Part shown: positions 35,645 through 50,819 of the stretch, piece after piece | Numbering within the stretch: the stretch's first letter is position 1 | How the letters are laid out: the number at the start of each line of letters is the position of its first letter | NCBI RefSeq assembly: GCF_000473205.1 | Contig: NZ_AXBF01000005.1 | Location: 164,924 to 228,923, forward strand | DNA from: Pseudophaeobacter arcticus DSM 23566 | GTDB lineage: Bacteria > Pseudomonadota > Alphaproteobacteria > Rhodobacterales > Rhodobacteraceae | Direction of reading: 5' to 3' | Length of the DNA stretch: 64,000 nucleotides | Made by a program: the position numbers and the translations under genes | Notes under the pieces: model-generated | Database searches by the model: none | What the model saw: only the letters and a program-made list of their open reading frames with translations | What the model was told of the DNA's origin: nothing

Positions 35645-35924
35645 GAGATGAGCGTCATCGCTCGGTATCCTGACGGGTGCGTGCCAGTCGGCCAAAGTTC
35701 CGGTAGGAGGAGGCAAAGCCCGCCGGAACCTTGGTAATCAAGGTGCTCGAAGTTGGAGATACTCCTCGCCAGTGCGCAAGGTCGCTGTGGCCGGCGCTTC
35801 CGTGCGGTTGTGCCTTCACCATCTATGATTACTGGTGAAGGCGGCGAGCAAGACGCCCGGTATTTTGAACACCGCGCGGCCCTGTTTGTCGTTGCTGCTT
35901 TGCTTGCCCCCGTCACCGTGCAAG

Positions 35925-36119
35925 TCAAAGTTCACCATACTGCCGTTCGCGGCTCAGGCGAAGCGGGCGATATGGCCCTCCTCCATCGCCAGCTTCGACA
36001 GGATCTGACTCTGCAGCAACCGTGGACTCGGGAACAGGCCGGGTCAGGCTGGGCGCCGCGCGGATCTTTTCGTAGTAGCGGATGGTAAATTGCGGATCAC
36101 AAGGATCGTGTGTGTTCAC
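35925..36119 (-). pseudogene. Possible remnant of a MerR-family gene
   Basis: A 64-codon minus-strand frame contains PQFTIRYYEKIRAAPSLTRP, similar to the 'TIRYYExIGLLPxPxR' recognition segment of MerR regulators. Everything after it diverges, and another frame continues differently. Short, broken, and adjacent to MerR-controlled genes; probably a fragment. Confidence 0.4.
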
Positions 36120-36131
36120 GAAAATATGTCC

Positions 36132-36162
36132 TTGAACCTCTAGCCACTAGAAGTCTTATCTA
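36132..36162 (+). promoter_or_regulatory. MerR-type promoter of the L,D-transpeptidase gene
   Basis: TTGAAC (36132-36137), a 19-bp spacer, TATCTA (36157-36162). The dyad CCTCTAG-CCA-CTAGAAG (36137-36153) matches the operator of the ten-gene operon at 47847-47863 with one arm mismatch. Confidence 0.75.
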
Positions 36163-36223
36163 ATCAAAGTGAACAGATACCGTTCTTGCCATAGATTGCT
36201 GGTGGGAACCGAAAGGGTAAGAC

Positions 36224-36886
36224 ATGCTGACAAGACGACACTTCATTCAAACAACAACGGCGCTATTCTCCGCGTCTGTTTCCAGCCCCCTGTTGGCCGA
36301 TACCTGGCCCGCCGAGGCACAGAAAGCTGAATGGGACGCGCAAGTCACGCCGCCCGGATTCGATCCGGCTACGTCAAACCCTTGGGGCCTACACCCGCGC
36401 TTTTTGCCCCAGCGCGTGGTCGCGAAACCCGGACTCGTGCCAGGAGACATCCATGTCGATGCAGTCGCGCGGTATCTCTATCATATCGAGGAGAGCGGGA
36501 CCGCAATGCGCTACGGTGTGGCCATTGCCCGGGGCAACCTATATGAGCCCGGGGTCTACACGATCAAACGCAAGGTGAGGTGGCCGCATTGGACGCCGAC
36601 CCAGAACATGATCGAGCGGGATCCGGAAAACGCACGATGGGCCGACGGGATGGAACCCGGCCCCGAAAACGCTTTGGGATCACGAGCCATCTATCTGTAC
36701 GTCGGAGACCGCGACACTTATCTTCGAATACACGGCACGCCCTATCCGCGAAGTATCGGCGGTCGAGCCAGTTCGGGTTGCGTGCGGATGGTCATGGCTC
36801 ACATTAACGAACTTTATCCCAACGTTGAGATCGAATCGACGGCACATTTGTACTCAGCGGAGGACAGTGTCACCGCGCGAAGTTGA
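36224..36886 (+). CDS. Exported L,D-transpeptidase (YkuD)
   Basis: A 220-residue protein with an N-terminal export signal (TRRHFIQTTTALFSASVSSP, residues 3-22; twin arginine). Its YkuD domain has the catalytic motif H170-G-T-P-Y-P, SIGGRASSG, C186-V-R188. Such enzymes form 3-3 cross-links or attach lipoproteins in peptidoglycan. It has its own MerR-type promoter 62 nt upstream, so it probably belongs to the metal-induced set. Confidence 0.9.
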   Translation: MLTRRHFIQTTTALFSASVSSPLLADTWPAEAQKAEWDAQVTPPGFDPATSNPWGLHPRFLPQRVVAKPGLVPGDIHVDAVARYLYHIEESGTAMRYGVAIARGNLYEPGVYTIKRKVRWPHWTPTQNMIERDPENARWADGMEPGPENALGSRAIYLYVGDRDTYLRIHGTPYPRSIGGRASSGCVRMVMAHINELYPNVEIESTAHLYSAEDSVTARS

Positions 36887-36934
36887 GTGTGGTGCGTAGG
36901 TCTGAGGCGCGTTGATGCAACGTGTGGCGCGTCC

Positions 36935-37219
36935 TCAAGCTTCGCGTGCCACGCAGATCGGATTACCGTTCGCCGTACGCAACGGCAGCAGCGTCGTTTC
37001 GACCGGCCCGCTGTGTTCGTACCAATAGCAGCCGTCTTCCGGCATGAGGCGCGCCGTTGCAACATCCTGATCCGGAGCAGCCATCGCAACCACGGCTTCG
37101 GGAACGTTGCCCGTCTGGTCTGCCGTGTCGTTCGGCCCTGTCGGCTGGATGGCGCATCCTGTCGTGAGCAAAAGCGCCACCGCAACCATCATTTTTTGCT
37201 TCAGCATCAAAACCTGCAT
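36935..37219 (-). CDS. Small lipoprotein of unknown function
   Basis: A 94-residue protein with a lipoprotein signal ending in the lipobox LLTTGC (Cys about 22). After it come an acidic linker and a C-terminal domain (PEDGCYWYEHSGPVETTLLP) with two more cysteines. A GAAAGGA site precedes the ATG at 37219. It lies convergent to the L,D-transpeptidase and divergent from the ATPase. I do not recognise the family; an envelope role is plausible. Confidence 0.7.
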   Translation of the reverse strand: MQVLMLKQKMMVAVALLLTTGCAIQPTGPNDTADQTGNVPEAVVAMAAPDQDVATARLMPEDGCYWYEHSGPVETTLLPLRTANGNPICVAREA

Positions 37220-37338
37220 CGAGTTTCCTTTCTTTTCTGTTTTTCTTCGTATCGGCTTTCTATGCCTAACGCCGTGATTGAGGCTGTCGTCGGACCGTCT
37301 AGCAAGAAAACAAACGGAAATACCACCGAACTTTTCTC

Positions 37339-37369
37339 TTGAAGCTCTAGCTACTGTAGGGGCTATGTC
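37339..37369 (+). promoter_or_regulatory. MerR-type promoter of the metal ATPase gene
   Basis: TTGAAG (37339-37344), 19-bp spacer, TATGTC (37364-37369). The spacer holds CTCTAG-CTA-CTGTAG, a variant of the operator seen at 36137 and 47847. It lies 33 nt from the ATPase start. Confidence 0.75.
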
Positions 37370-37401
37370 ATGACAAAGCACCCGAATCCAGAGGTCCGTT
37401 C

Positions 37402-39756
37402 ATGCCGTCCGACACCCACCGCCACGATCACGATCACGCCGAAGACGCCCAGGCAAGCGGCGGCAGTTGCTGTGGTAGCGCCGGAACGTGCGGCGACATC
37501 GCACCGACGACGCCCGCCCCAACCGGCGGGCGCAGTTTTCAGGTGTCCGGCCTCGATTGCGCCGAGGAGGTCGCGATCTTGAATAAGGTAATCGGCCCGC
37601 AGATCGGCGGGGCCGAGCATCTCGCGTTCGATGTGATCAACGGGAGGATGACCATTCTCGACAGCGCAAAGAGTGTATCGGACGACGAAGTTGCGGAACT
37701 TGTCGCGAGCACCGGCATGACCGCGAAGCCGTGGAATGCCGAGAACGCGTCGGTCGACCAAGCGGCCCATCTTGCACGACAGCGGCTGTTTACGGCTCTC
37801 AGCGGCGGCTTCTGGGCGGCGGGTTTTCTCTGGCACATCGTCGAGACAGGTATGGGCGGGGCGCTCGGCCTCTTCGCGGGGCACGGCGAAGCGCCGATGC
37901 CGCTGGCCGAGGCAGGGCTTTTTGCAGTTGCTATCCTATTCGGCGTTTGGCTTGTGGCACCGAAGGCATGGTCGTCCGCACGTCGGCTGTCGCCCGACAT
38001 GAACCTGCTGATGGTTGTCGCAGTCGCCGGAGCCATCGGGCTCGGTGAATTCTTCGAGGCAGCGACAGTGGCTTTTTTCTTTTCGCTGTCCCTCTTTCTC
38101 GAAAGCTGGAGCGTTGGGCGCGCGCGGAACGCGGTGTCGGCGCTCCTGGATCTTGCGCCACCCACCGCGCGCGTGATCCGCGATGACGGAAGCGAGACCG
38201 ACATGCCGGCGGCGCAAGTCGCCGTAGGCTCAAGCTTTATTGTACGCGGTGGCGACCGTATCCCGCTCGACGGCCTGGTGACGGGTGGCGCGGGCGCGGT
38301 CGACCAGGCGCCGATCACTGGCGAAAGTGCTTTGATACCCAAAGAGGCCGGAGACGAGGTCTATGCGGGCACGATCAACGGCGAAGGTACACTAACGGTG
38401 CGCGCCACGAAGGCCGCCTCGGATACCGTCTTGGCCAAGATCATCCGCATGGTCGGCGACGCTCATGCCCGCCGCGCGCCCGTGGAACAGTGGGTGGCAA
38501 AGTTCGCCCGCATCTACACGCCTATCGTCATGGCTCTCGCCGTCGCAATTGCGCTACTGCCGCCGCTTATCTTCGGCGGAGCCTGGGATTACTGGTTCTA
38601 CAATGCCCTCGTGCTGCTGGTGATCGCTTGCCCATGTGCTCTGGTCATCTCGACCCCTGTCTCCATCGTCGCAGCGCTCACCGCTTCGGCGCGGGCGGGC
38701 GTCCTCATCAAGGGCGGTGCCTATGTAGAGGCGCCGGGCAGGACGACGGCGCTGGCCATGGACAAGACCGGCACAATCACCATGGGCCAGCCGGAAGTGG
38801 CGGCGGTGCACCCGCTGGGCGGGGCTTCAGCGCAAGATCTGATGACCCTCGCCGCAGGACTGGAGGCACGTTCGTCGCACCCTTTGGCGCGTGCCATTCT
38901 CGCGCGGGCGGAGGCCGACGGCGTCAAGGTGTCCGCCGCAGAGGATACCCGCACCATTCCCGGCAGGGGGCTTGAAGGACGCACTGACGGACGGTCGATC
39001 TGGCTGGGGTCGGACCGGTTTGCCGAGGAGAAGGGTTTCGGCGACGCCATTCCGAAGGATCTGCGGGAGCGGATCGAAGGCGCCGGCAGCACCCTTGTCG
39101 CTGTCGGCGATGAATCCGGTGTGACGGGCATTCTTGAACTGCGCGATCGCATCCGCCCTGATGCCAAGGGCATCGTGGCGCAACTTCACGCGCAGGGCGT
39201 GAAGACCATCGTCATGCTGACCGGTGACAACGAGCGAACAGCGCGCGCCGTTGCCGCCGAGGTCGGTATCGACGAGGTGCGCGCTGAGCTTCTGCCCGAA
39301 GACAAGGTGACAGCCATCGAAGACCTGGTCAAAACTCACGACATGGTTGCCATGATCGGCGACGGGGTGAACGATGCACCCGCAATGGCGCGCGCGCATT
39401 ATGCCATCGCGATGGGTGCGGTTGGTTCTGACGCGGCAATCGAGACGGCGGACATTGCCCTTATGACCGACGACCTCGGCAAGGTGCCTTGGCTGATCGG
39501 TCATTCGCGCCGGACAATGTCGATTATCCATCAGAACATCGGTATTTCCTTGGCGACCAAGGGAGTTTTCGTTGTCGCTACCGCGTTCGGAATGGCATCG
39601 ATGTGGGGCGCTATTGCAGCCGACGTGGGTGTGTCATTGCTGGTGGTGGCGAACGCCCTGCGCCTGCTCAACAGCCAAGAGGCCAAGGCACCGCCGTCCG
39701 GTGGCGAGCAGGTTGGGCCACAGATCGCAAAGGCCGCGCTTGCCCACGGACATTGA
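37402..39756 (+). CDS. PIB-type heavy-metal-exporting ATPase (Zn/Cd/Pb class)
   Basis: A 784-residue ATP-driven metal exporter. The His/Cys-rich N-terminus (HRHDHDH, SCCG) is followed by a metal-binding domain with GLDCAEEV (C53). Eight membrane segments carry the translocation motif CPC (410-412). The catalytic motifs are TGES (306-309), DKTGT with the phosphorylated D454, SSHPL and GDGVNDAP (653-660). CPC with a zinc-type core points to Zn/Cd/Pb. It is controlled by its own MerR-type promoter, so PbrA/CadA-like function is likely; the exact metal is not readable. Confidence 0.92.
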   Translation: MPSDTHRHDHDHAEDAQASGGSCCGSAGTCGDIAPTTPAPTGGRSFQVSGLDCAEEVAILNKVIGPQIGGAEHLAFDVINGRMTILDSAKSVSDDEVAELVASTGMTAKPWNAENASVDQAAHLARQRLFTALSGGFWAAGFLWHIVETGMGGALGLFAGHGEAPMPLAEAGLFAVAILFGVWLVAPKAWSSARRLSPDMNLLMVVAVAGAIGLGEFFEAATVAFFFSLSLFLESWSVGRARNAVSALLDLAPPTARVIRDDGSETDMPAAQVAVGSSFIVRGGDRIPLDGLVTGGAGAVDQAPITGESALIPKEAGDEVYAGTINGEGTLTVRATKAASDTVLAKIIRMVGDAHARRAPVEQWVAKFARIYTPIVMALAVAIALLPPLIFGGAWDYWFYNALVLLVIACPCALVISTPVSIVAALTASARAGVLIKGGAYVEAPGRTTALAMDKTGTITMGQPEVAAVHPLGGASAQDLMTLAAGLEARSSHPLARAILARAEADGVKVSAAEDTRTIPGRGLEGRTDGRSIWLGSDRFAEEKGFGDAIPKDLRERIEGAGSTLVAVGDESGVTGILELRDRIRPDAKGIVAQLHAQGVKTIVMLTGDNERTARAVAAEVGIDEVRAELLPEDKVTAIEDLVKTHDMVAMIGDGVNDAPAMARAHYAIAMGAVGSDAAIETADIALMTDDLGKVPWLIGHSRRTMSIIHQNIGISLATKGVFVVATAFGMASMWGAIAADVGVSLLVVANALRLLNSQEAKAPPSGGEQVGPQIAKAALAHGH

Positions 39757-39819
39757 TCACGCGGCATTTGCAAGGTAACATTATTTCCATATCAGACCTC
39801 ACGAAAGAGGCATCGAGCA

Positions 39820-40332
39820 GTGAAAACCATCCGATTTCCCCGCCGCGCCGTCCTGTTGGGTGGCTTAGCGGCCTTTTTGTCGGGCTGTGCCGGCAAGTTC
39901 CGCAGCTATGACGGACCCGAAGTGACGCGACTTCGGCTCTACAAGGGACAGCGTTTGCTTGTTCTCGACGGATCCGATCGCGTGCTGCAAACCTATCCGA
40001 TCGGGCTGGGCTTCGCTCCTCAGGGTCACAAGCAATTCGAGGGAGACGGTCGGACCCCGGAGGGCACCTACATAGTCGATAAGCGCAACCCTGAAAGTAC
40101 GTATCATCTTTCAGTTGGCATCTCTTATCCGAATGAGGCCGACATCGCCTTTGCCGAAGCGCAGGGCCTTTCCCCCGGCGGCGACATCTTCATCCATGGT
40201 GGTCCACGCCCCGGCATCGACCCGACGGACATCCGCGACTGGACAGCTGGCTGCATCGCGGTCACAGATCGGCAGATCGAGGACATCTATGCAATGGTGA
40301 AGGACGGAACGCCTATCCACATCTATGCATGA
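39820..40332 (+). CDS. Lipoprotein L,D-transpeptidase (YkuD family)
   Basis: A 170-residue protein with a lipobox LSGCAG (Cys about 22) and a YkuD domain. The catalytic part is HGGPRPG with a histidine near 126 and DWTAGCIAVTD with the active cysteine near 145. The start is a GTG at 39820 with an AAAGAGG site. Its 3' end overlaps the convergent lnt gene by 20 nt. It follows the ATPase by 63 nt and may share its transcript. Confidence 0.87.
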   Translation: MKTIRFPRRAVLLGGLAAFLSGCAGKFRSYDGPEVTRLRLYKGQRLLVLDGSDRVLQTYPIGLGFAPQGHKQFEGDGRTPEGTYIVDKRNPESTYHLSVGISYPNEADIAFAEAQGLSPGGDIFIHGGPRPGIDPTDIRDWTAGCIAVTDRQIEDIYAMVKDGTPIHIYA

Positions 40333-41890
40333 CGGTCTTTCTCATGCGGCGGTAGTTAGCCGTCGCATTGGCCGCCAGAGCCCAGCTCCACGAAGCCAAG
40401 ATGAGCGCCAGCAACATCCAGTCCCCAAAAAGCGCATATGGCGTAGGCGGCCGCGCAGAGGGAAGATCAGCGTCGACTATGCCCCTTTCCCCGGTATCGA
40501 GCCGCGCAACGATCTCTCCGTTCGCGTCGATGACGGCAGAGATGCCCGTATTCGCGGCTCGGATGACAGGAAGGCCTTCCTCTACGGCGCGCATACGTGC
40601 GGAAGCCAGATGCTGCTCGGGTCCGATGCTGGTTCCAAACCAGGCATCGTTTGTCGCGTTAAAAATCCAGTCGGGTCGGAACAGGTCGTCGACCACATGG
40701 CCTGGGAAGATGATCTCATAGCAGATCGCCACGGCGACCAGCGGCACACCCGGAAGCGCAAGCGTTCGCAGGCCCGGTCCAGGCGTAAAATCGCCCAGCC
40801 CCGCTGTCAGCCGCTCGATCGGCAACCAGCCGCGGAATGGAGTGTATTCGCCAAAGGGCACGAGATGGTGTTTCGCGTATCCGGTCAGGATCTCACTGTT
40901 ATCGTCAAAAGCCTGGACGGTGTTGAAATATCGGGTGCCATCCTCACTCGGTACACGGTCCGGCACTCCGGTGAGCAGCACGCTGCCGTCCGGAAGCGCA
41001 GCCGCGATACGGGATCGCGCCTGGGCATCCTCATCGAGGAAACCGGGAAAGGCAGTTTCCGGCCAGAGAAGAACGTCGAAATCGCCGGGCTGGGTTGAAA
41101 GCTCGATATAGCGCGCGAAGGTCGCCTCGCGGTTCTCGGGCGCCCATTTCTCCTCTTGGGGTACGTTGCCCTGAACGATGCGCAGGTCGACATCCGGTGG
41201 CTGTGGTGCATCCGACTGGAGGCGAAGCGTGCCGATGGCCCACATCGTTACGATGCCGGCCAGCGGCATGAGCGAGATGATCAATCGTTGTCGCCCGACC
41301 GCCATGAGAGCCGCGCCGGGGAGTGCCGCTACGAACACGGTGAGAAAGCTTAGCCCATAACTTCCCACCCAGGCGGCGGGCTGGCGAAGGGCGGCGTAAT
41401 CAACAAGAGCGTAGCCGGCGAGGTTCCACGGAAAACCTGTCAGAACGTGACCGCGCAACCACTCGGCCGCGGTCCATGAGGTCGCGAACAGGAGGCAGGC
41501 CAGGAGACTGCCCATGGCTCCGCGCCGCGCGATTTCGACGAAGAGCACGGCGGCAATGGCCGGGAAAATCGCGAGACCTGCGGACAATCCCGCGACGGCC
41601 GGGATCGCCAGCGCCCCGAAACGCTCGGCCTCGACGTAGAAACTTTCCGCGATCCACGAAATCCCGAAACCGAACTGGCCGAGACCAAACGCCCAGCCGA
41701 CGAGAAAAGCACGCCCGAAGGAGAGGTCGCGAAGACCGACAAACAACGCAGAATAGGCAACGGGAACAAGCAGGAGAATCGAGAAAGGCGGGAAGGTTAG
41801 AACGGTCAGCGCCCCGGCGGCGAAACCAAGCGTCATCCGCGAGAGCAGACGTTTGCGCAGAGCGAAGCAGTTCAGAATTACCGGCTTCAC
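40313..41890 (-). CDS. lnt: Apolipoprotein N-acyltransferase
   Basis: A 525-residue inner-membrane enzyme that adds the third acyl chain to lipoproteins. Several N-terminal membrane helices precede a nitrilase-like domain with the triad glutamate (WPETAFP), lysine (AKHHLVPFGEY) and cysteine (ICYEIIFP). I place the start at the GTG at 41890, which overlaps the lspA stop (GTGA) and gives the usual length. A downstream ATG at 41836 would remove the first residues. It is the last gene of the ten-gene operon. Confidence 0.9.
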   Translation of the reverse strand: MKPVILNCFALRKRLLSRMTLGFAAGALTVLTFPPFSILLLVPVAYSALFVGLRDLSFGRAFLVGWAFGLGQFGFGISWIAESFYVEAERFGALAIPAVAGLSAGLAIFPAIAAVLFVEIARRGAMGSLLACLLFATSWTAAEWLRGHVLTGFPWNLAGYALVDYAALRQPAAWVGSYGLSFLTVFVAALPGAALMAVGRQRLIISLMPLAGIVTMWAIGTLRLQSDAPQPPDVDLRIVQGNVPQEEKWAPENREATFARYIELSTQPGDFDVLLWPETAFPGFLDEDAQARSRIAAALPDGSVLLTGVPDRVPSEDGTRYFNTVQAFDDNSEILTGYAKHHLVPFGEYTPFRGWLPIERLTAGLGDFTPGPGLRTLALPGVPLVAVAICYEIIFPGHVVDDLFRPDWIFNATNDAWFGTSIGPEQHLASARMRAVEEGLPVIRAANTGISAVIDANGEIVARLDTGERGIVDADLPSARPPTPYALFGDWMLLALILASWSWALAANATANYRRMRKTVMHRCG

Positions 41891-42369
41891 GACTTGATCG
41901 GACGCCGCGCACTGATCCAGGGTGCGGCGAGCAAGAGCCCCACGCCACTGACGACAAACACATCGGCCATGTTGAAGGCAGGCCAATGCGTTGAGTTGAT
42001 GTAGAAATCCAGGAAGTCCGTTACAGCCCGATACCGCACACGATCAAAGACATTGCCCAAGGCCCCACCAATAATCGCGCCATAGGCAAGCGTTTCAACC
42101 GCATTTTCGGCGCGAAACAGCATAACCCCCAGCCAGCCGCAGATGGCAAGAGCGAGAGCTATGAGGCTCCACCATGGTGCGCCGCCAAGTAGTCCGAAAG
42201 TGACGCCATCATTGCGATAAAAGACAAGGTTAAAACCTGGAAACACGGCGATTCCAGTGCTTAAGGAGGCCGCATTCGCCACAACAATGGCTTTTGTGAT
42301 CTGATCGATTACGAAAGCGGTAAGCGCCGCAAAAATACCGATCACCGGAGATAGTTTATGCACTGGCAT
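41887..42369 (-). CDS. lspA: Lipoprotein signal peptidase (LspA; PbrC-like context)
   Basis: A 160-residue inner-membrane aspartyl protease that cleaves lipoprotein signal peptides. Four membrane helices carry the family motifs GNVFDRVRYRAVTDFLDF (first Asp) and FNMADVF (second Asp). lspA genes occur in lead-resistance operons as pbrC, and the neighbours here (ATPase, MerR, ZIP) fit that. It begins 4 nt after the ZIP gene, with GGGGTGA as a likely ribosome-binding site. Confidence 0.92.
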   Translation of the reverse strand: MPVHKLSPVIGIFAALTAFVIDQITKAIVVANAASLSTGIAVFPGFNLVFYRNDGVTFGLLGGAPWWSLIALALAICGWLGVMLFRAENAVETLAYGAIIGGALGNVFDRVRYRAVTDFLDFYINSTHWPAFNMADVFVVSGVGLLLAAPWISARRPIKS

Positions 42370-42373
42370 TGCG

Positions 42374-43156
42374 TCACCCCAACCAAACATCGAGAAAAAG
42401 CATCAAAACGAGCCCGACGGCCAAGCCGAGCGTTGCCTTGTTCTGATGGCCGCTGCGATGGGTTTCGGGGATGATTTCGTGGCTGATGACATAAAGCATG
42501 GCGCCTGCGGCAAAGGCCAAGCCCCATGGCAGCAGCGGTTCCGACAGTGTGATGATGCCAGCCCCGAGCAAACCGCCAATCGGCTCGACCATTCCCGTTA
42601 GCGCGGCGATGCCCCAGGCGCGCAGCTTCGGATATCCTTCGCCCAACAGGGATACCGCAACGGCCAGCCCTTCAGGCGCATTCTGAAGCCCGATGCCGAT
42701 GGCGAGTGGCAGACCGCCTTCCATACCTCCGGAACCGAAGCCAACTCCGACCGCGAGGCCTTCCGGGAAGTTGTGGATCGTGATTGCGATGATGAACAGC
42801 CAGACCCGCCGTAAGGACGCCGCTTCGGGCCCTTCGCGTCCCGTTCTGAAATGCTCGTGCGGCAGCCTTTCATTCATCAATGCAACGGCCCCCATGCCCA
42901 AAAGGATCGAGACGCAAACGATGGCCGCAGGCATCGCGCCGTTCTCGAACATCGGCTCCGCCGCATCCAACGCCGGGATGATCAGAGAAAAGAACGAGGC
43001 TGAGAGCATGACGCCGGCAGCGAAGCCGAGCGACAGATCGCGCGTCGCCCGCGACGGGATGCGCCCGAACAGCACGGGAATTGCTCCGACTGCCGTGAGC
43101 GATCCGGCGGCAAGGCTTCCGAGAAAGCCGAGCATTATCGGAGACAGGTTTTCCAT
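42374..43156 (-). CDS. ZIP-family metal transporter
   Basis: A 260-residue membrane protein with eight predicted helices. The ZIP metal motif HNFPEGLAVGVG lies in one helix and QNAPEGLAVAVS in the next. A histidine-bearing loop (LPHEHF) lies between. ZIP proteins carry zinc and related divalent metals, in bacteria usually inward. Its presence in a resistance operon is unusual in direction and may serve lead or zinc balance, or vesicle-like efflux. It is translated from within the operon, 12 nt after DUF411. Confidence 0.88.
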   Translation of the reverse strand: MENLSPIMLGFLGSLAAGSLTAVGAIPVLFGRIPSRATRDLSLGFAAGVMLSASFFSLIIPALDAAEPMFENGAMPAAIVCVSILLGMGAVALMNERLPHEHFRTGREGPEAASLRRVWLFIIAITIHNFPEGLAVGVGFGSGGMEGGLPLAIGIGLQNAPEGLAVAVSLLGEGYPKLRAWGIAALTGMVEPIGGLLGAGIITLSEPLLPWGLAFAAGAMLYVISHEIIPETHRSGHQNKATLGLAVGLVLMLFLDVWLG

Positions 43157-43168
43157 AAGCGGGCCAGA

Positions 43169-43624
43169 TTATCCTTCGGCGTAGCTTGAAAAGACTTCGG
43201 TCGACCCGTCCTCGCGGATGAGGAAGACATCATAAGCTTCACGGTTTTCTTCCGGCCCCATGCCGGGCGAGCCATAGGGCATTCCCGGAACGGCGAGGCC
43301 GACGGCGTCCGGGCGTTCCTCAAGAAGGCGGCGGATATCAGCGGCCGGGACATGGCCTTCAATCACGTAGCCCTCTATGAGCGCGGTATGGCAGGAGACC
43401 ATGCGCTGCGGCACGCCGTTGTCGAGCTTGAAACGAACCAGCGACCCGCCAAACATGTTCTCGCCCGTCGGCGCGAATCCGTTTTCCTCGAGATGGTTCA
43501 TCCAGGACAGGCAGCAGCCGCATCCGTTGGTCTTGCGGACGTCTATCGCTGTTGCCTCTGCGAGGGCCTGGGCCGCCGGGAACAGGGCGAGCGCGATGGT
43601 CAGAGCTTGGGTCATGCGTTTCAT
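43169..43624 (-). CDS. Periplasmic DUF411 copper/metal-binding protein
   Basis: A 151-residue protein with a signal peptide (residues 1-22, AQALA) and a DUF411 domain. Metal-site candidates are C-G-C-C in TNGCGCCLSW, the MVSCHTALIEG segment, and VPGMPYGSPGM near the end. DUF411 proteins accompany copper resistance genes (CopG-like). It starts 3 nt after the M23 gene and precedes the ZIP gene in the same operon. Confidence 0.88.
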   Translation of the reverse strand: MKRMTQALTIALALFPAAQALAEATAIDVRKTNGCGCCLSWMNHLEENGFAPTGENMFGGSLVRFKLDNGVPQRMVSCHTALIEGYVIEGHVPAADIRRLLEERPDAVGLAVPGMPYGSPGMGPEENREAYDVFLIREDGSTEVFSSYAEG

Positions 43625-43627
43625 GGG

Positions 43628-45001
43628 TCAGAGCCTTTCGGTTGTCGTCTGGGCAATTTCGCTGTCAAGGTTTTCAGTCAGAAGCGCGCGCGCCTCGGTC
43701 AGACGCAACAGCGCGGCGGTATCATCCACCTCGTTCTCTGCGGCTTCGGCGAGCCTGTCGTCAGAGAGAGGGTCAGTCGGACGCCCATCTACGAGGACTT
43801 CGTAGTGCAGGTTGGGACCTGTTGCTGTGCCGGTTGCGCCAACGCGGCCGATCAAATCTCCCGCCGCCACGCGTTGGCCCTGTGTTAGGCCCTCCGACAC
43901 GGCGCTGAGATGCGCGTAGCGCGTCATGGTCTCGGAGCCATGGGAGATTTCGACCACGCGTCCATAACCGCCTCGCCAGCCGATGAAGCTGACCCGGCCC
44001 GGTGCCGTCGTCCGTACCGGCGTCCCGCTTGCCGCGGCAAAATCGACGCCGGTGTGCATCCGGACGTTTCCGTAGACCGGATGTGTGCGGCGCCCGAACA
44101 CCGAGCTGAGGCGCGCGCCCTCGACTGGCTGTGCAAAGACGCGAAGCACCTCGCCATCGACGTAGATCGTCGCCTGACCGCTGCCGTCGTCCGGCCAAAC
44201 GATCTCGTAAAGCGAATCGCCGATTTCCAGTGCGGCGAAGGCGAGGTCCGGCTGTCCGATCTTGTCATCGCCGACGCGCGTCTCGCGCCAGAGAAGCCTT
44301 AGTGTCTCGCCTCCAGCCATCTCACGGCGGAAATCCACGGTTCCACCCAGCATTTGCGCAAGGTCCACGGCAAATCGGGCGGGGATGCCGGCATTGTCGA
44401 GTGCCGCGAAGATCGAGGTGTCGATCACGGCCTCCCCAGCAAGGGTTACGATCTCCGGATCCGGCGCCACGACCTGCGTGGACACCTGCTCGCCAAAAAG
44501 CACCTCGATCCGCACCCCGTCCTCGACGGCGAGCGAGACGGTGCGGGGGCTGCCATCCATAGTCGAAACAACAGTGACCGAATTCCCCGGCCGCAACCGT
44601 CGCAGATCGTATTCCGCGCCAAGTGCAAGGGCGACTTCCGCCCGGTCGTCTCCCGCAAGACCGGCTTCGGAAAGCAAGGAGTCGAGCGTTTCACCAGAAG
44701 AGATGTCGCGAGACCAAGTCAACAGGGGCGGTTCGATGGCCTGCATCGGCCTGTCAACAACAGCGGCCTGCAGCAGGGGCAAGGGGCCGAAGCCGGGTGT
44801 ATCTTCCACCCACGCCGTAGCTGGCAGCGACAACGGAATATCCAGGCTCCGGGGAGCTTCAGGACGCTGGGGCATCCAGCTACCTGCCTGGGCAAGTTCT
44901 GGCGGCACGGGTTCTTTCGACAGAACATCGAAGAATGCGATAGCCGCCCCCGAAACGGTCCCCGCAAGCGCGACACCTGCCGCAAAAGTTCTGAGCCTCA
45001 T
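43628..45001 (-). CDS. M23-family peptidoglycan endopeptidase
   Basis: A 457-residue protein with an N-terminal signal or anchor, a long N-terminal region containing a LysM/opacity-like fold, and a C-terminal M23 domain. The zinc residues are in HTGVDFAA, HLSA and HYEVLVDG. Such enzymes cut peptide cross-links or activate amidases. The ATG at 45001 overlaps the SCO gene by 4 nt. Its placement with thiol and lipoprotein enzymes suggests envelope maintenance under metal stress. Confidence 0.87.
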   Translation of the reverse strand: MRLRTFAAGVALAGTVSGAAIAFFDVLSKEPVPPELAQAGSWMPQRPEAPRSLDIPLSLPATAWVEDTPGFGPLPLLQAAVVDRPMQAIEPPLLTWSRDISSGETLDSLLSEAGLAGDDRAEVALALGAEYDLRRLRPGNSVTVVSTMDGSPRTVSLAVEDGVRIEVLFGEQVSTQVVAPDPEIVTLAGEAVIDTSIFAALDNAGIPARFAVDLAQMLGGTVDFRREMAGGETLRLLWRETRVGDDKIGQPDLAFAALEIGDSLYEIVWPDDGSGQATIYVDGEVLRVFAQPVEGARLSSVFGRRTHPVYGNVRMHTGVDFAAASGTPVRTTAPGRVSFIGWRGGYGRVVEISHGSETMTRYAHLSAVSEGLTQGQRVAAGDLIGRVGATGTATGPNLHYEVLVDGRPTDPLSDDRLAEAAENEVDDTAALLRLTEARALLTENLDSEIAQTTTERL

Positions 45002-45624
45002 GTCGCTCCCTCCGTTTCTTCTTCCAACGCGCGGCGGATCTTCGGTACCGCGAATTCCCTCGGTTCATGATAGTCAATCATGGTGACGAACCGTCCAGCG
45101 GCACCGAACAGGAAGACGCTGGCCGTGTGGTTCATCGTGTAGTCGCCGCCTTCCGTGGGCACCCGCTCGTAGGCAGCGCGGAAGCCGTCCGCGATGCGCG
45201 CAATCTGCCCCTCCGGTCCCGTCCAGCCGCGGATCGCTGGGTGGAAATAACTGACATATTCTGCCATCGCCTCGACGGTATCGCGCTCGGGATCGACCGT
45301 GATGAAAACCACGTTCAACTGTTTGGCTTCGTCTCCTAAATCGTCGAGCCAACCTGAAATGTCCGAGAGCGTGGTCGGGCAGACATCGGGGCAGTAAGTG
45401 AAACCGAAGAACGCCATCGTCGGTCGCCCGATCAGGGTTTCCGGCCCGACCTCGTTGCCTTCATGGTCAGTCAGGCGGAAATCCATCTCGGTCAGAGCCA
45501 TAGGCCGCTGCTCAATAGGTTCGGGCGCACCGGGTCCGTCGACCCGCCACCAACCGACGAAGAGCGTCAAGGCAATTGCACCGGCACCGGCCGCGCCGTA
45601 TCCTGCGATCGTCCTTCGTCGCAT
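44998..45624 (-). CDS. SCO1/SenC-family copper protein
   Basis: A 208-residue membrane-anchored thioredoxin-fold protein. One N-terminal helix precedes the FTYCPDVCPTTLSDI motif, whose two cysteines bind copper or act in thiol exchange. The third ligand is a histidine in YTMNHTASVFLFG. SCO proteins deliver copper to cytochrome oxidase or reduce its ligands. Start and end overlap neighbours by 1 and 4 nt. Confidence 0.9.
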   Translation of the reverse strand: MRRRTIAGYGAAGAGAIALTLFVGWWRVDGPGAPEPIEQRPMALTEMDFRLTDHEGNEVGPETLIGRPTMAFFGFTYCPDVCPTTLSDISGWLDDLGDEAKQLNVVFITVDPERDTVEAMAEYVSYFHPAIRGWTGPEGQIARIADGFRAAYERVPTEGGDYTMNHTASVFLFGAAGRFVTMIDYHEPREFAVPKIRRALEEETEGAT

Positions 45625-46091
45625 TAGTCTTCCGGTCCGCGTGCGGCGATGCCAAGGATCGGCACCTCGACTGTCACCTCGCCCCCGTCGACAAAAAGTA
45701 GGGTCAGCGGAAAGGTTTCCCCTTCCGTCATGGGTTGTTGTAGCCGCATCAACATCGCGTGGAGGCCGCCCGGCTCAAGCGCGACGCTCTCGCCCGGGGC
45801 GATCGCGATCTCACCTGCCGCGCTCATGGAACTCACACCTTCGGCATTGGTCTTCGTCTCGTGGATCTCGGGCATCATCGCGAGGGGTGTTGAAAGACCA
45901 ATCAGCGTCACCGGCTCGTCGCCAGTGTTGCGGATCGTCATGTAGACGGCCCCGGGGCGGTTCATCCCTATGGAGGCGCGGGACCAGGCGCTTTCGACGA
46001 CGACATCCACGGGTCCGGCTAGTGCGGGTACTGAGAGCCCTCCAAAGGTCAAGAGCGCGGCCAGTGTGCCCGTCATAATAATCTTTTTCAT
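45624..46091 (-). CDS. PCu(A)C-type periplasmic copper chaperone
   Basis: A 155-residue protein with a signal peptide (residues 1-25) and a cupredoxin-like PCuAC domain. The Met/His copper ligands are in MPEIHETK, VSSM and GGLHAMLM, the H(M)-x10-M-x21-H-x-M pattern. It passes copper to SCO or the CuA site. The ATG shares one base with the next SCO gene. Confidence 0.88.
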   Translation of the reverse strand: MKKIIMTGTLAALLTFGGLSVPALAGPVDVVVESAWSRASIGMNRPGAVYMTIRNTGDEPVTLIGLSTPLAMMPEIHETKTNAEGVSSMSAAGEIAIAPGESVALEPGGLHAMLMRLQQPMTEGETFPLTLLFVDGGEVTVEVPILGIAARGPED

Positions 46092-46114
46092 CGTTTTGGT
46101 CCTGCCTTTTCCAT

Positions 46115-46774
46115 TCAGCTTTGCACGGCGGCAACTTCCGCGGCCACTAATCGACGCAGTTCTGCCTCCCCGAATGGATCGAGCGACTTGCCGTTTACAA
46201 AGAAAGTAGGAGTCTGGCGAACTCCCACGGTTTCGACGTCCGCACGATCCTGATTCAGGATCGCAACGACATCCGGTGCCAGCATTTGCGTGCGCGCGGC
46301 CTCTGCATCGAGTCCGGCAGTGGCGGCGATCTGGAGGATCAGACCGGGCTCAGGCGCGCCGTGCGACGCCCATCTCGGCTGATCCCGCAGAACGGCTTCG
46401 AGCACCGGCTCGTAAACGCCTTGCATGCGTGCTGCCTCGAGCACGCGGATCGCTTCCTCGGATGCCTCGCCATGAAACGCGGTGTAGCGGACAACGACGC
46501 GGACGGCATCTCCATGCTGTGCCATGATGTCCTTCACGATCGGATGGAAGGCGCGGCAAGCCTCGCAGGCCGGGTCAAAGAATTCGACAATCGTGACGGG
46601 CGCGTCGGCAGGTCCGAGGATGGGCGAGTAAGAGCGGATCATCGCGTCCGCGAGTTCCGGCGCAACGGTTTTTGCTTCGGCCGCGGGGCCGGGGCGAGTC
46701 GCGTACCAAGTGGCTCCGCCGAAACCGGCAACGCCGAGGGCGAGAACGGACAGGATTAAGCCGCGTCGATTCAT
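46115..46774 (-). CDS. DsbA-like thiol oxidoreductase
   Basis: A 219-residue protein with an N-terminal anchor or signal (residues 1-25) and a thioredoxin fold. The active site is DPACEACRAF (CEAC) and the cis-proline is in VRQTPTFFVNG. It probably introduces or isomerizes disulfides in the periplasm, with the DsbB partner encoded immediately upstream (4-nt overlap). It precedes the copper chaperone genes in the operon. Confidence 0.88.
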   Translation of the reverse strand: MNRRGLILSVLALGVAGFGGATWYATRPGPAAEAKTVAPELADAMIRSYSPILGPADAPVTIVEFFDPACEACRAFHPIVKDIMAQHGDAVRVVVRYTAFHGEASEEAIRVLEAARMQGVYEPVLEAVLRDQPRWASHGAPEPGLILQIAATAGLDAEAARTQMLAPDVVAILNQDRADVETVGVRQTPTFFVNGKSLDPFGEAELRRLVAAEVAAVQS

Positions 46775-47193
46775 GTTTGTGTTTCCTTCAATGAAAGTGC
46801 CGACAGGAACCCGATCAGTGCGAAGGCGACCAGCGCCATCAGCGGGATCGGAATGCCGAAGACCAATTGGTTATCATCGGTGCAAGAGGGGCCGGTGGCC
46901 GTGCAGGGCTGGATGCGTTCGGGGATCAGGCCCGCGTAGAGGCCCATGTGCCACAGGGCGACCACGCCACCACCAAGCGCCAGAGCGATGCCATAGCGCC
47001 CGACGCTGCCGTCTCGCCACCAAAGGCCGAGGCCGAGAATGATCGCGAGCGGGAACATGAAGGCGCGCTGGAACCAGCACAGCACGCAGGGTGTCTGCCC
47101 CATCACTTCGCCGATGAAAAGTACAGCAAGCGAGGCGACGAGGGCAACGATCCATGCCAGCCCGAGGGCGGTTTCTGCGGGTACGCGGTTCAT
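46771..47193 (-). CDS. dsbB: Disulfide bond formation protein DsbB
   Basis: A 140-residue four-helix inner-membrane protein that reoxidizes DsbA with quinone. The first cysteine pair is PCVLCWFQRAF, the second PCTATGPSC. It begins 5 nt after the first SCO gene and overlaps the DsbA-like gene by 4 nt, so the pair is expressed together. Confidence 0.9.
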   Translation of the reverse strand: MNRVPAETALGLAWIVALVASLAVLFIGEVMGQTPCVLCWFQRAFMFPLAIILGLGLWWRDGSVGRYGIALALGGGVVALWHMGLYAGLIPERIQPCTATGPSCTDDNQLVFGIPIPLMALVAFALIGFLSALSLKETQT

Positions 47194-47198
47194 GTCGG

Positions 47199-47801
47199 TC
47201 AGATCCTCTCTTCCAGATCGGCGAGAATCTCTTCAGCGGACGTGCCATAGGGCCATGAGTCTGCAAAGCCTGCCTCGGGATCGAATAGAGACAGATGTGA
47301 CGTGTGGCCCATTGTGTAGCCATCCGGAGCTGTAGCCTCTTCGATGCGTTCAAAGAAGATCGGAAACGTTTCGGATGTAGCGGCGATCTGTTCGGGCGTA
47401 CCTGTCAGCCCGATGATGTTCGCATCGAACAGCGGAACGAATTCGGCGAGTGCCATGGGCGTGTCCCGTTCGGGGTCGATGGTTATGAAAATCGGCTGGA
47501 CCCTCGCGGCATTGTCGCCCAGACCGTCCATCACCGCCGCGACCTCAGACAGTGTCGTCGGGCAGACATCGGGGCAGTTGCTGAAGCCGAAAAATACCAA
47601 CATCCAACGCCCCGAAAAGTCTTCTTCCGTGCGAACCACACCTTGGTGGTCCGTCAATTCGAATGCAGCGACAAACGCTGGATCGTTGTCGGTTCGGGCG
47701 CGGTCAGCGCGATAGTCCGACCAGAGCAAAAGCCATACGAAGGCAAGCGACGCGACGCCTGCCAAAACCCAAAGAAATTTCTGTGCCGATGTAAGGGACA
47801 A
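47199..47801 (-). CDS. SCO1/SenC-family copper protein, first copy of the operon
   Basis: A 200-residue membrane-anchored thioredoxin-fold protein with FSNCPDVCPTTLSE and the ligand histidine in YTMGHTSHLSLFD. It is paralogous to the SCO protein at 44998-45624 but diverged. As the first gene of the ten-gene operon it lies 37 nt from the -10 of the MerR-type promoter. Confidence 0.9.
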   Translation of the reverse strand: MSLTSAQKFLWVLAGVASLAFVWLLLWSDYRADRARTDNDPAFVAAFELTDHQGVVRTEEDFSGRWMLVFFGFSNCPDVCPTTLSEVAAVMDGLGDNAARVQPIFITIDPERDTPMALAEFVPLFDANIIGLTGTPEQIAATSETFPIFFERIEEATAPDGYTMGHTSHLSLFDPEAGFADSWPYGTSAEEILADLEERI

Positions 47802-47837
47802 ACCTGCGCGCCTGATTTTGATTCTTGATTATTGTCG

Positions 47838-47868
47838 CGTTTACATCCTCTAGCTACTAGAGGTTCAA
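47838..47868 (-). promoter_or_regulatory. MerR-type promoter of the ten-gene operon
   Basis: On the minus strand: TTGAAC (47863-47868), 19-bp spacer, TAAACG (47838-47843). The spacer holds the perfect dyad CCTCTAG-CTA-CTAGAGG (47847-47863), the best copy of this operator in the window, next to the divergent merR-like gene. Confidence 0.82.
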
Positions 47869-47972
47869 GCGCGAAATCACGTTGTGGCTTAAACTCACGC
47901 GTCTGTGAATCCGGCACTTGTCTATTGAGGCGGCAAAACCTACACAGACTGTAACTTTTCATGGAGGCGAAG

Positions 47973-48401
47973 ATGCTCACGATCGGCACTCTGTCAAAGA
48001 AGACCGGCACAAAGGTGCAGACCATTCGGTACTACGAGCAGATCGGGCTCATGCCCGAACCTGGCCGGACTGAAGGCGGACAGAGGCGCTATGACAATGC
48101 ACAGCTCGACCGACTGTCCTTCATCCGCCATTCGCGACAACTCGGCTTCTCGCTTGATGCGATCCGCGAGCTGCTCGACCTCAGCGACCAGCCCAATCGG
48201 CCCTGCGAAGAAGTCGACGCGATTGCGCGTCGCCAGCTAAAGCAGGTGGAGCAGCGCATGGCCCGTCTGAAGGCGCTGCGCACCGAACTGAAACGCATGG
48301 TTCACGAATGCAGCGGTGGACGTACCGCCGATTGCAAGGTGCTTGAGGTGTTGCGGGATCATTCCGAATGTTTGACCGAACACGACGAGATCGGTGCCTG
48401 A
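47973..48401 (+). CDS. MerR-family heavy-metal regulator (Cd/Pb/Zn type)
   Basis: A 142-residue regulator with a MerR HTH ([17 protein letters not shown] near 18-34), a dimerization helix and cysteines in [10 protein letters not shown] and CSGGRTADC, plus a further one in HSEC. The arrangement resembles CadR/PbrR-type sensors of soft divalent metals. The ATG at 47973 has GGAGG 7 nt upstream and is preferred to the ATG at 47961. It is divergent from the ten-gene operon and is the likely regulator of all CTCTAG-type promoters here. Confidence 0.88.
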
Positions 48402-48402
48402 G

Positions 48403-48720
48403 ATGCCTGCCGCGCTTGCCTATCCGCTTGCGGCCTTGGCCGAGATCGCCGGGTGTTTCGCGATCTGGAGTTGGTGGCGCCTCGGCGCATCCGCGGCCTG
48501 GCTCGTACCCGGTATTGTAGCCTTGGTGGTATTCGGGTGGCTTCTGGCGCAAGTCGAAACGGTTGCTGCGGGCCGCGCGTTTGCCGCCTATGGCGGAGTC
48601 TACATTGCGGCTTCGATACTGTGGATGTGGCTTGCAGAGGGTCACAGACCGGACAGGTGGGATACGCTTGGCACAGCCGTTTGCTTGCTCGGCGCAGCTA
48701 TAATACTGGCCGCGCCATGA
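48403..48720 (+). CDS. YnfA-family small membrane protein
   Basis: A 105-residue protein with four membrane helices and the family signatures [19 protein letters not shown] and [20 protein letters not shown] (UPF0060). Function unknown; small-multidrug-like transport has been suggested. The ATG lies just after the merR-like stop, so the two are cotranscribed. Confidence 0.88.
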
Positions 48721-48927
48721 ACCAATTGAACTTTATGGTTTGAACTTGAAACCGTCTCAAATCGCGATCTCATCGCCCCATAAAAAGGGCTATACTCTAC
48801 TTTGGTTGAGACGCCTGACTGACAGCTCCCGGCGGTCGTAAATGGAACTGACCATTATTAATCAATCCGGAACTCTGATCTGCCCGAGAGGTTGAAGGAT
48901 CATAGTCGACCAAGCGGAATGGGAAGT
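48721..48927. other. Intergenic region before the CDF-like gene
   Basis: A 207-bp region with AT-rich sequence (about 48770-48800). It could hold a promoter for the transporter gene. I see no gene and no MerR-type dyad in it. Confidence 0.4.
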
Positions 48928-49527
48928 ATGACTGCAGGAAAAGGAGCAAGCGAAAGACGCACCCTTTGGATTGTTCTCGGTCTAAACGTGGGTCTTGCCA
49001 TGGCCTTTTTTGCGACCGGGGCCTTCGGGGATTCCAGTGCCCTGATCGCAAACGGGCTCGACAACCTTTCAGACAGCTTGGTCTACGCAATCAGTCTGTT
49101 TGCATTGTCGCGGTCTGCGAAATGGAAACGTGGTGCGGCGAATGTCTCGGGCTGCTTGCTGATCGTGTTCGCCATCGGGATCCTTTATGATGCTTGGCGC
49201 CGCTATGTCGGTGGGTCGGATCCCCTTGGCACCGTTATGATCGTCATGGCGCTGAGCGCGGCGGCCATCAACTCAGTTTGTGTCTGGTTGCTCGCTCGGC
49301 TCAAAGATCCGGACGTCAACATCCGCGCGGCCAATACTTTCAGCTGGAACGACTTTGCGGCAAACCTCGGAATCGTGGTCGCAGGTGGCCTCGTTGCCTG
49401 GCTGGGAACGAACTGGCCCGACCTAGTCGTCGGTGTGATTATCGCCGGGATCGCGGCCTGGGGCGGCGTCAATATCCTACGCGACGCACACGGTGAACAC
49501 CACAAAGCAGTTCACACGGACAAGTAG
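48928..49527 (+). CDS. Cation transporter, short CDF-like protein
   Basis: A 199-residue membrane protein with five or six helices and the CDF-like segment LIANGLDNLSDSLVYAIS and later LGTVMIVMALSAAAIN. It lacks the C-terminal cytoplasmic domain of ordinary cation-diffusion facilitators (about 300 residues). The start could also be the ATG at 48919 or a TTG at 48892. It probably exports divalent metal, fitting the island. Confidence 0.75.
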   Translation: MTAGKGASERRTLWIVLGLNVGLAMAFFATGAFGDSSALIANGLDNLSDSLVYAISLFALSRSAKWKRGAANVSGCLLIVFAIGILYDAWRRYVGGSDPLGTVMIVMALSAAAINSVCVWLLARLKDPDVNIRAANTFSWNDFAANLGIVVAGGLVAWLGTNWPDLVVGVIIAGIAAWGGVNILRDAHGEHHKAVHTDK

Positions 49528-49556
49528 TTGCGAGAGATCGTTTCTAAAAGAAGGGG

Positions 49557-49587
49557 TTGAAGCTGCAGTAACTATAGAGACTAGTCT
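49557..49587 (+). promoter_or_regulatory. MerR-type promoter interrupted by IS630
   Basis: TTGAAG (49557-49562), 19-bp spacer with the dyad CTGCAGTAACTATAGAG, then the -10 hexamer beginning TA at 49582. The IS630 element starts inside this hexamer. Without it the box would read TAGGTA, continuing at 50754. It belongs to the CTCTAG-type series by -35 and spacing; the dyad is more degenerate. Confidence 0.6.
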
Positions 49588-50753
49588 TCCACGCCTGACG
49601 CAAGATTCCCAAGTATGCTCAGTTGTGGCATGGTCGGCGGATGAGACGCTCCGACATCTGCCTTTACCTTGGCCCCGCCGACCGCACCGAGCTGCAAGCC
49701 CTGATCGCCAACCGCAACACGCCGCGCAAGCTCGTCTGGCGGGCCGAGATCGTGCTGGCCACGGCCGATGGGAGTGGCACCACCGAGATCATGCGGCAGA
49801 CGGGCATGTCGAAGCCGACGGTCTGGCGCTGGCAGGAGCGGTATCTCGATGAGGGCGTGGCGGGGCTCAAGCGGGACAAGACGCGGCCCTCTCGGGTGCC
49901 GCCGTTGCCTCGGGAGGTCCGGCTGAAGGTGATCGCGAAGACCGTGCAGGAGGCCCCGCCCAATGCCACGCACTGGAGCCGCGCGTCGATGGCAGAGGCG
50001 GTGGGAATTTCGGCTTCGAGCGTGGGGCGCATCTGGGCCGATGCCGGGCTGAAGCCGCATATCGTGAAGGGCTTCAAGGTCTCGAACGACCCGATGTTCG
50101 AGGAGAAGGTCACCGAGATCGTCGGCCTCTACCTCGACCCGCCGGACCGCGCGGTCGTGCTCTGCGTCGACGAGAAGTCCCAGATCCAGGCGCTCGACCG
50201 GACCCAGCCGGGGCTGCCGCTCAAGAAGGGACGCGCTGCCACGATGACCCACGACTACAAGCGCCACGGCACCACCACGCTCTTCGCCGCGCTGGACGTG
50301 AAGTCGGGCCTGGTCATCGGAGAATGCATGCCGCGCCACCGCGCCAGGGAGTTCCTGAGTTTCCTCCGCCGTATCGACCGGGCGGTGAAGAAGCCCCGCG
50401 ACATCCATCTCGTGCTCGACAACTACGCCACCCACAAGACGCCCGAGGTGCAGGCCTGGCTGGAGAAGCATCCCCGCTTCAAGCTGCATTTCACGCCCAC
50501 AAGCGCGTCCTGGATGAACCTCGTCGAGCGCTTCTTCGCCGAGATCACCGCCAAGCGCATCCGCCGCGGCAGCTACTCCAGCGTCGACGACCTCGAGGAC
50601 GCAATCTACGATTACCTGCTGCAGCACAACGCCAAGCCGAAGCCCTTCGTCTGGAGCAAGACCGCCGAAGACATCCTCGCCCGGGAGCGGCGCGCACTCG
50701 ACGCGCTCGACCTTATCAGAGGAAATCGGTAGCAAATGTCAGACTCGGAACAC
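49584..50753. mobile_element. IS630-family insertion sequence
   Basis: About 1170 bp, flanked by TA on both sides (49582-49583 and 50754-50755), the target duplication of IS630/Tc1-type elements. The ends carry related terminal inverted repeats: reading inward from the flanking TA, left TAGTCTTCCACGCCTGAC against right TAGTGTTCCGAGTCTGAC, 13 of 18 matching. It contains one transposase gene. Confidence 0.8.
49641..50732 (+). CDS. IS630-family transposase
   Basis: A 363-residue transposase. An N-terminal HTH pair (GTTEIMRQTGMSKPTVWRWQ near 46-65) precedes a DDE catalytic domain with D177 (CVDEKS), D260 (LVLDNYATHK) and E296 (LVERFFAEI). It appears intact and complete. The start ATG at 49641 gives the usual family N-terminus. 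Confidence 0.93.
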   Translation: MRRSDICLYLGPADRTELQALIANRNTPRKLVWRAEIVLATADGSGTTEIMRQTGMSKPTVWRWQERYLDEGVAGLKRDKTRPSRVPPLPREVRLKVIAKTVQEAPPNATHWSRASMAEAVGISASSVGRIWADAGLKPHIVKGFKVSNDPMFEEKVTEIVGLYLDPPDRAVVLCVDEKSQIQALDRTQPGLPLKKGRAATMTHDYKRHGTTTLFAALDVKSGLVIGECMPRHRAREFLSFLRRIDRAVKKPRDIHLVLDNYATHKTPEVQAWLEKHPRFKLHFTPTSASWMNLVERFFAEITAKRIRRGSYSSVDDLEDAIYDYLLQHNAKPKPFVWSKTAEDILARERRALDALDLIRGNR

Positions 50754-50803
50754 TAGGTATGAGGGGGGCGTTGAAAGATCGGGCATTATTGCTTGATTGT
50801 TTT

Positions 50804-50819
50804 TCTAACGCGCGTTAGA
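50804..50819. promoter_or_regulatory. TetR-type operator candidate TCTAACGCGCGTTAGA
   Basis: A perfect 16-bp palindrome 45 bp upstream of the first gene of the catabolic operon, in the position of an operator. Its AACG/CGTT core is common to TetR-family sites controlling acyl-CoA genes. No such regulator is in the window. Confidence 0.5.

Follow-up and report, generated by a model that had tools for sequence, protein, structure and literature searches.

We analysed a 64,000-nucleotide stretch of Pseudophaeobacter arcticus DSM 23566 (contig NZ_AXBF01000005.1, positions 164,924 to 228,923; hereafter the window) in which the gene for an L,D-transpeptidase (LDT), LDT1 (36224-36886, + strand), stands behind a putative promoter of the MerR type. 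The favoured explanation, to which we give a probability of about 0.8, is that a plasmid carries a MerR-type metal regulon, generally of the CadR/PbrR kind, which includes LDT1, a heavy-metal P1B-type ATPase and a ten-gene run. The explanation rests on sequence, namely on the sites, their spacing, their conservation and the gene content. As a sequence pattern the regulon is real, and at that level the case for the LDT as a member is strong.

An earlier note on this DNA had claimed four promoters of the form TTGAA(C/G)-19 bp-TA over related dyads, and direct reading bears this out, with a 19-bp spacer between the two boxes at all four sites and the dyad form CTnnAG-N3-CTnnAG common to them. Site 1 (36132-36162, +), before LDT1, reads TTGAAC-CTCTAGCCACTAGAAGTCT-TATCTA, with the -35 box at 36132-36137, the dyad inside the spacer and the -10 box at 36157-36162, and a comparable site is found in relatives. 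Site 2 (37339-37369, +), before the P1B ATPase, reads TTGAAG-CTCTAGCTACTGTAGGGGC-TATGTC. Site 3, before the ten-gene run and divergent from the merR gene at 47973-48401, reads TTGAAC-CTCTAGTAGCTAGAGGATG-TAAACG (47868 down to 47838, -), and its dyad, adjoining merR, is a perfect 7+7 palindrome (CCTCTAG/CTAGAGG), as the note had said. Site 4 (49557-49587, +) reads TTGAAG-CTGCAGTAACTATAGAGAC-TAGTCT and is split by an IS630 element within the -10 box, after its TA (49582-49583). A 27-nt pattern (TTGAAS-CTNNAGNNNCTNNAG-NNNN-TA, up to one mismatch) matched the window five times, at the four sites (36132 with one mismatch) and at 978-1004 on the minus strand; 100 dinucleotide-preserving shuffles of the window gave no match. 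A looser pattern, the 21-nt core with up to three mismatches, gave a weaker signal (13 matches in the window vs 5.3 expected).

The putative LDT1 promoter in related genomes

A scan with a position matrix, a kind of check that the earlier note had also proposed, supports the membership of LDT1. Of 90 distinct sites, the 66 that do not stand before LDT1 or a second LDT gene, LDT2, served to train the matrix, which was then scored on the 79 closest LDT1 loci from named genomes, where a score above 15 was called a site. Such a score was found 87-155 bp before the start codon at 75 of the 79 loci, and nearly all of the site-bearing genes lie within metal islands; the best of 790 mononucleotide-shuffled sequences reached -0.8. 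None of 39 further LDT1 relatives had a site above 15. This second set comprised 38 genes in other genomes (64-72% identity, most without nearby metal genes) and a copy in a copper cluster of the own genome (L267, 79%). In two distant relatives, L252 and L254, a dyad separates LDT1 from a divergent Lnt-SCO run; it scores 4.3 and 2.6 toward LDT1, and both loci were counted as site-less. Across 119 LDT1 proteins, site and nearby ATPase were both present in 68 cases and both absent in 40, with eight having only the site and three only the ATPase; an ATPase was counted as nearby within 7 kb in the first set, and within the 4-kb flanks and above 50% identity in the second. In a tree of the same 119 proteins, built with a quick method, 76 with a site and five without formed one group (SH-like approximate likelihood ratio test, SH-aLRT, 99).

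One relative, G384, has a different arrangement. Its LDT1 (L262) closes a series of genes on one strand, SCO-DsbB-DsbA-PCuAC-SCO-M23-lipoprotein-LDT1, headed by a site (TTGAACCTCTAGCTGCTAGAGCATGTA) from which a MerR gene diverges whose product is 82% identical to the window MerR. Because this LDT1 lies outside the tree group of LDTs with their own sites, and inside an SCO/Dsb operon, an LDT seemingly joined the same regulon twice.

The sites that the earlier note had placed before the ATPase, the ten-gene run and the LDT recur in related genomes. The 27-nt pattern matched 103 times in 61 of 194 relatives, and the reversed pattern once. Together with 80 regions taken around these matches, the survey covered 164 loci, 79 of them chosen via LDT1, and their 279 sites reduce to 123 contexts less than 80% identical. 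Of these contexts, 111 lie 20-260 bp upstream of a gene of the reference set and 12 are without an assigned gene. The downstream gene is the ATPase in 41, LDT1 in 21 (a share inflated by the choice of 79 loci via LDT1), a CDF gene in 17, a transglutaminase-like gene in 14, the SCO operon in 12, LDT2 in four, and DUF411 and IS630 in one each. Most sites before an ATPase, CDF, SCO or transglutaminase-like gene lie about 60 bp from its start, a distance typical of promoters. Of six relatives checked, five (G061, G083, G042, G077 and G056) have a single MerR above 45% identity, and G110 has a second at 52%; G061 and G083 carry sites before LDT1, the ATPase, the SCO operon and the transglutaminase-like gene. 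In relatives with one such MerR, of which these two are examples, control by one regulator would be the simplest reading of the sequences. Outside the usual set of genes, sites also stand before a DctQ-like TRAP transporter gene pair in G110 (L091:2688-4719), amid other regulon members, and before an ArsP_1-type permease gene in G176 (L138:6044). LDT1 relatives (E≤1e-40) were found in 153 of the 394 genomes surveyed in the family, and LDT1 itself is found at 90% identity or more in 64 of the 803 plasmid records with any match. The 126,304-bp plasmid NC_009957 of Dinoroseobacter shibae DFL 12 encodes an LDT1 with 90% identity, and in genome G046 the LDT1, ATPase, SCO-run and transglutaminase-like genes all have sites.

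Several observations weigh against the favoured explanation or limit its support. Three LDT1 loci (L209, L213 and L215) lack the site, and that of L208 is weak (8.0). Scoring the opposite strand of the same upstream regions reached 19.5; given the dyad symmetry of the motif, the direction cannot be read from a score of 15 by itself. The 79 loci are related and hold 28 distinct 31-mers and 25 upstream regions with flanks less than 70% identical; across these 25 regions the mean pairwise identity was 0.69 in the site (0.90 in the -35 box) vs 0.29 in the flanks, a footprint favoured by the score-based choice of regions. Over the 194 genomes, a MerR homologue (E≤1e-40) and a strict site occurred together in 49 and were both absent in 122, with 11 genomes having only the MerR; the Fisher p of 8e-24 carries no correction for kinship, and 12 genomes have a site and no MerR at that threshold. 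Finally, the own genome holds three close MerR paralogues.

Genes of the island and the predicted metal sensor

Gene identities are from Pfam and NCBIfam profile searches. LDT1 (220 aa) has a YkuD domain (PF03734, 74.5 bits) with an HG...SxGC motif, in which His170 and the catalytic Cys186 are invariant in an alignment of 14 sequences, and L,D-transpeptidase activity is predicted. It is no classical LdtE/ElsL equivalog, its NCBIfam score of 51 being far below the cut-off of 480. Between LDT1 and the ATPase, and convergent with LDT1, lies the gene of a putative small lipoprotein (36935-37231, -, 98 aa) which matched no Pfam family; it accompanies LDT1 in nearly all relatives examined, in metal islands and non-metal loci alike, and its product may serve the LDT as partner or substrate. 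The P1B ATPase (37402-39756, +) is of the Zn/Cd/Pb-like kind (TIGR01525 and TIGR01512 above cut-off). A further YkuD protein, LDT3 (39820-40332, +), resembles YafK/DpaA; its gene starts 63 bp after the ATPase gene and is likely co-transcribed with it. The ten-gene run on the minus strand (40313-47801; open reading frames and Pfam matches, with an uncertain Lnt start) has the order SCO-DsbB-DsbA-PCuAC-SCO-M23-DUF411-ZIP-LspA-Lnt. Beyond merR follow a YnfA/UPF0060 membrane protein gene, which adjoins it (48394-48720, +), and the gene of a CDF cation efflux protein (48892-49527, +), both identified by profile search.

The 142-aa regulator encoded at 47973-48401 (+) belongs to the MerR family, with MerR HTH and MerR-DNA-bind domains (PF13411, PF00376 and PF09278 above cut-off). 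In sequence it comes nearest to the structures 5gpe (E 5.3e-28) and CadR 6jgv (1.4e-25), followed by MerR 5crl. In the alignment its Cys78, Cys113 and Cys121 fall on the metal cysteines of 5gpe and 6jgv, and Cys133 is also present. The trio points to a sensor of divalent soft metals (Cd, Pb, Zn, perhaps Hg); Cu(I) sensors of the MerR family have a serine at the first metal position. The NCBIfam models rank the protein differently from the structures: CueR scores best (TIGR02044, 123.2 vs a cut-off of 147.4 bits), ahead of CadR-PbrR (TIGR02047, 116.7 vs 151.45 bits). Since the protein lies below these cut-offs and below those of ZntR and MerR, we give it no named subfamily. The presumed Cd/Pb/Zn sensor stands with copper-handling genes.

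Paralogues, further LDTs and an interrupted promoter

Pattern searches of the own genome (5.05 Mb, 6 contigs) found six exact matches of the 21-nt core, three of them in the window and the others at C2:98257 (the window's contig), C3:188452 and C6:3973613. With one mismatch the core matched 12 times (vs five for the reversed control) and the 27-nt form six times (vs none). The sites on C3 and C6 precede ATPases beside MerR genes whose products are 62% and 71-72% identical to the window MerR; these paralogues lie at C3:188027 and C6:3975970, the latter on the chromosome, and each adjoins a near-identical site. The earlier note had assigned all sites to one regulator. That assignment fits the relatives with a single MerR, but it is less certain in the own genome, because three MerR paralogues would compete for near-identical sites.

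The site at C2:98257 lies 139 bp upstream of LDT2, a second, truncated YkuD gene. LDT2 (L026:6397-6822 and L108:18334-18759) is cut short to 141 aa, with an identical end point in the own genome and in G003, a member of the same genus, and the early end is apparently caused by an inserted element. LDTs recur in metal clusters, for beside the main island a second plasmid cluster (C2:123000-139000, L267) holds two further LDTs with CopA-like ATPases, a multicopper-oxidase-like protein and a CueR-like MerR that has serine at the first metal position (SVQVK). No dyad-type site was found at these two LDT copies (scores -28.9 and -23.5), and a generic scan for MerR promoters gave one poor candidate in the cluster. 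A fifth site of the same architecture in the window (TTGATCCTGTAGCTGCTACAG, 19 bp, TA; 978-1004, -) adjoins another MerR gene (about 1052-1426, +), whose product is 40% identical to the 47973-48401 MerR; the minus-strand open reading frame downstream of it resembles, by eye, a mercuric transport protein.

Site 4 has a history of its own. The IS630-family insertion sequence (IS) beside it (49584-50753, +, 1170 bp) encodes a DDE_3 transposase (PF13358), has three other genomic copies and starts at the base that follows the TA of the -10 box. The window copy has imperfect terminal repeats (GTCTTCC../GTGTTCC..) with TA on both sides, and terminal repeats with TA at both ends, as in this family, are also found in two chromosomal copies. 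G003 has site 4 intact, 60 bp upstream of a gene series that runs transglutaminase-like, CDF, PEMT/ICMT-type methyltransferase and LDT2, the last with a site of its own. On the own chromosome, the right half of the promoter and the transglutaminase-like and CDF genes lie directly right of the IS copy at C6:2230219-2231394, the severed half being between two IS630 copies (L293, C6:2230219-2234288). Judged from this arrangement, site 4 is an orphan, severed by IS630 from a former transglutaminase-like/CDF operon. The earlier note had taken it for a promoter of the IS630 copy, but it is half of the split promoter of another operon, and the intact site in G003 together with the chromosomal half excludes reading into IS630 as its original function. 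IS630 supplies GTCT with its own end, which restores the -10 hexamer TAGTCT, and a hybrid promoter may therefore now read into the transposase gene. The severing of site 4 from its original gene, LDT3 and the fifth site were all absent from the earlier note.

A proposed metal regulon with an envelope branch

MerR regulators act by an established mechanism in which the metal-bound protein distorts promoter DNA, whereupon RNA polymerase can open the promoter. In the model we favour, the 47973-48401 regulator or close paralogues would bind the dyads within the 19-bp spacers and keep the promoters poorly active without metal; metal binding would then distort the DNA and allow the promoters to be opened. 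The predicted targets are the P1B ATPase with LDT3, the SCO/Dsb/PCuAC/M23/DUF411/ZIP/LspA/Lnt run, LDT1 via its own promoter, and, elsewhere on the plasmid, LDT2. Under metal stress, export would thus be induced along with the replacement or reinforcement of envelope enzymes.

Systems of this kind are already known, and the cell-wall and lipoprotein branch appears to be new. CadR/PbrR systems (cadR-cadA of Pseudomonas and pbr of Cupriavidus metallidurans) share with the island a three-cysteine MerR, a 19-bp spacer holding a dyad, and P1B ATPase and CDF targets, and the pbr operon includes a signal peptidase II (PbrC) whose counterpart here is LspA, according to PMC3431237 and to the comparative genomics of MerR-family metal regulons by Permina et al. 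2006 (PMC1526738). PMC3431237 also describes cysteine mutants and a promoter, PpbrA, with a 19-bp spacer and a -35 box of TTGACT in place of the TTGAA(C/G) seen here. Unlike in CadR/PbrR systems, the targets here include three LDTs, an M23 endopeptidase, Lnt, SCO, DsbAB, PCuAC, DUF411 and the transglutaminase-like protein. CueR/HmrR systems likewise have a 19-bp spacer, with an ATPase and periplasmic copper proteins as targets, but their dyad (ACCTTCC..GGAAGGT, PMC1526738) differs from CTnnAG-N3-CTnnAG, and the regulator here has Cys78. Deployment of an extra LDT under envelope stress, as proposed here, is known for E. coli LdtD, and the LDT review that describes it names no MerR regulator (PMC12729407). 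The earlier note knew of no LDT in such a regulon, and likewise searches of the open-access literature listed no paper that places LDT genes under a MerR metal regulator, subscription journals being mostly outside the search.

How far one regulator suffices depends on the paralogues. Cross-regulation of shared sites by the plasmid MerR and those at C6:3975970 and C3:188027 has a little under an even chance in our judgement, given that the three proteins are 62-72% identical, each beside a near-identical site, and have an identical KVxTIRYYE stretch in the DNA-binding domain; at least two relatives with one MerR above 45% (G061 and G083) nevertheless have sites at LDT1, the ATPase, the SCO operon and the transglutaminase-like gene, and cross-regulation among the PbrR paralogues of C. 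metallidurans is reportedly very low (PMC3431237). The dyads themselves, as near-palindromes, could suit another dimeric factor, and MerR binding is predicted here from the sequence. We nonetheless regard another regulator or mobile-element repeats as very improbable, because the 19-bp spacing to a TA box is fixed, the sites mostly lie about 60 bp upstream of ATPase, CDF, SCO and transglutaminase-like genes, the flanks of the LDT1 sites are unrelated and the presence of sites tracks the MerR clade; a repeat or mobile element as the source of the dyads is ruled out by the unrelated flanks and the promoter-like spacing. It is also quite unlikely that LDT1 merely entered the metal islands together with its promoter and is regulated without a role of its own. 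As the LDT1 genes with a site are essentially one clade, recruitment was possibly one old event followed by spread on plasmids, and 53 of 148 matching plasmid records hold at least 80% of the island-containing 15.4-kb piece (35600-51000). The site was kept, however, while its flanks diverged to background identity, an LDT1 from outside the clade entered the G384 SCO operon in a separate event, LDT2 also has sites in four distinct contexts, and the second plasmid copper cluster holds two more LDTs.

Copper inhibition of LDTs was reportedly described by Peters et al. in 2018. According to PMC11390936, copper inhibits LDTs of Vibrio cholerae and E. coli and no other tested metal salt does so. Since copper poisons LDTs and the ten-gene run has the copper proteins SCO and PCuAC, as well as DUF411, the true signal might be copper rather than Cd, Zn or Pb; we find this doubtful, as the three cysteines of the regulator stand at CadR/PbrR-type positions, the CueR-like gene of the same genome has the serine (SVQVK) and the ATPase is of the Zn/Cd kind. 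In D. shibae, metal-resistance genes on a 102-kb plasmid are reported to change the tolerance of copper, cobalt or zinc only a little and to make the strain slightly more resistant to silver (PMC9426580).

A more speculative extension of the favoured model, which we hold only tentatively and think more probably wrong than right, is that such MerR promoters induce, along with pumps, 'spare thiol enzymes', that is, replacement copies of cysteine-dependent envelope enzymes that metal may poison. The set would comprise the three LDTs, Lnt, the transglutaminase-like protein, DsbA/DsbB, the two SCO proteins and the CGCC-type DUF411 protein, and cells would survive metal by outproducing their poisoned envelope machinery, besides exporting the metal. 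These enzymes would be prone to poisoning because they depend on a reactive cysteine. Their cysteine motifs are present in the sequences, and the cysteine of Lnt and transglutaminase-like proteins has a catalytic role. The copper-only inhibition described in PMC11390936 is evidence that Cd, Zn or Pb do not simply poison LDTs.

The combined data suggest that marine plasmids have placed the same kind of metal-switch promoter on cell-wall enzymes and on pumps, so that envelope maintenance would be co-induced with metal export. If this is true, a metal sensor on mobile plasmids has cell-wall cross-linking by LDTs as one of its built-in outputs, which ties metal resistance to envelope remodelling. 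LDTs can bypass penicillin-binding proteins, and the model therefore raises the question whether metal exposure may alter the beta-lactam tolerance of marine bacteria.

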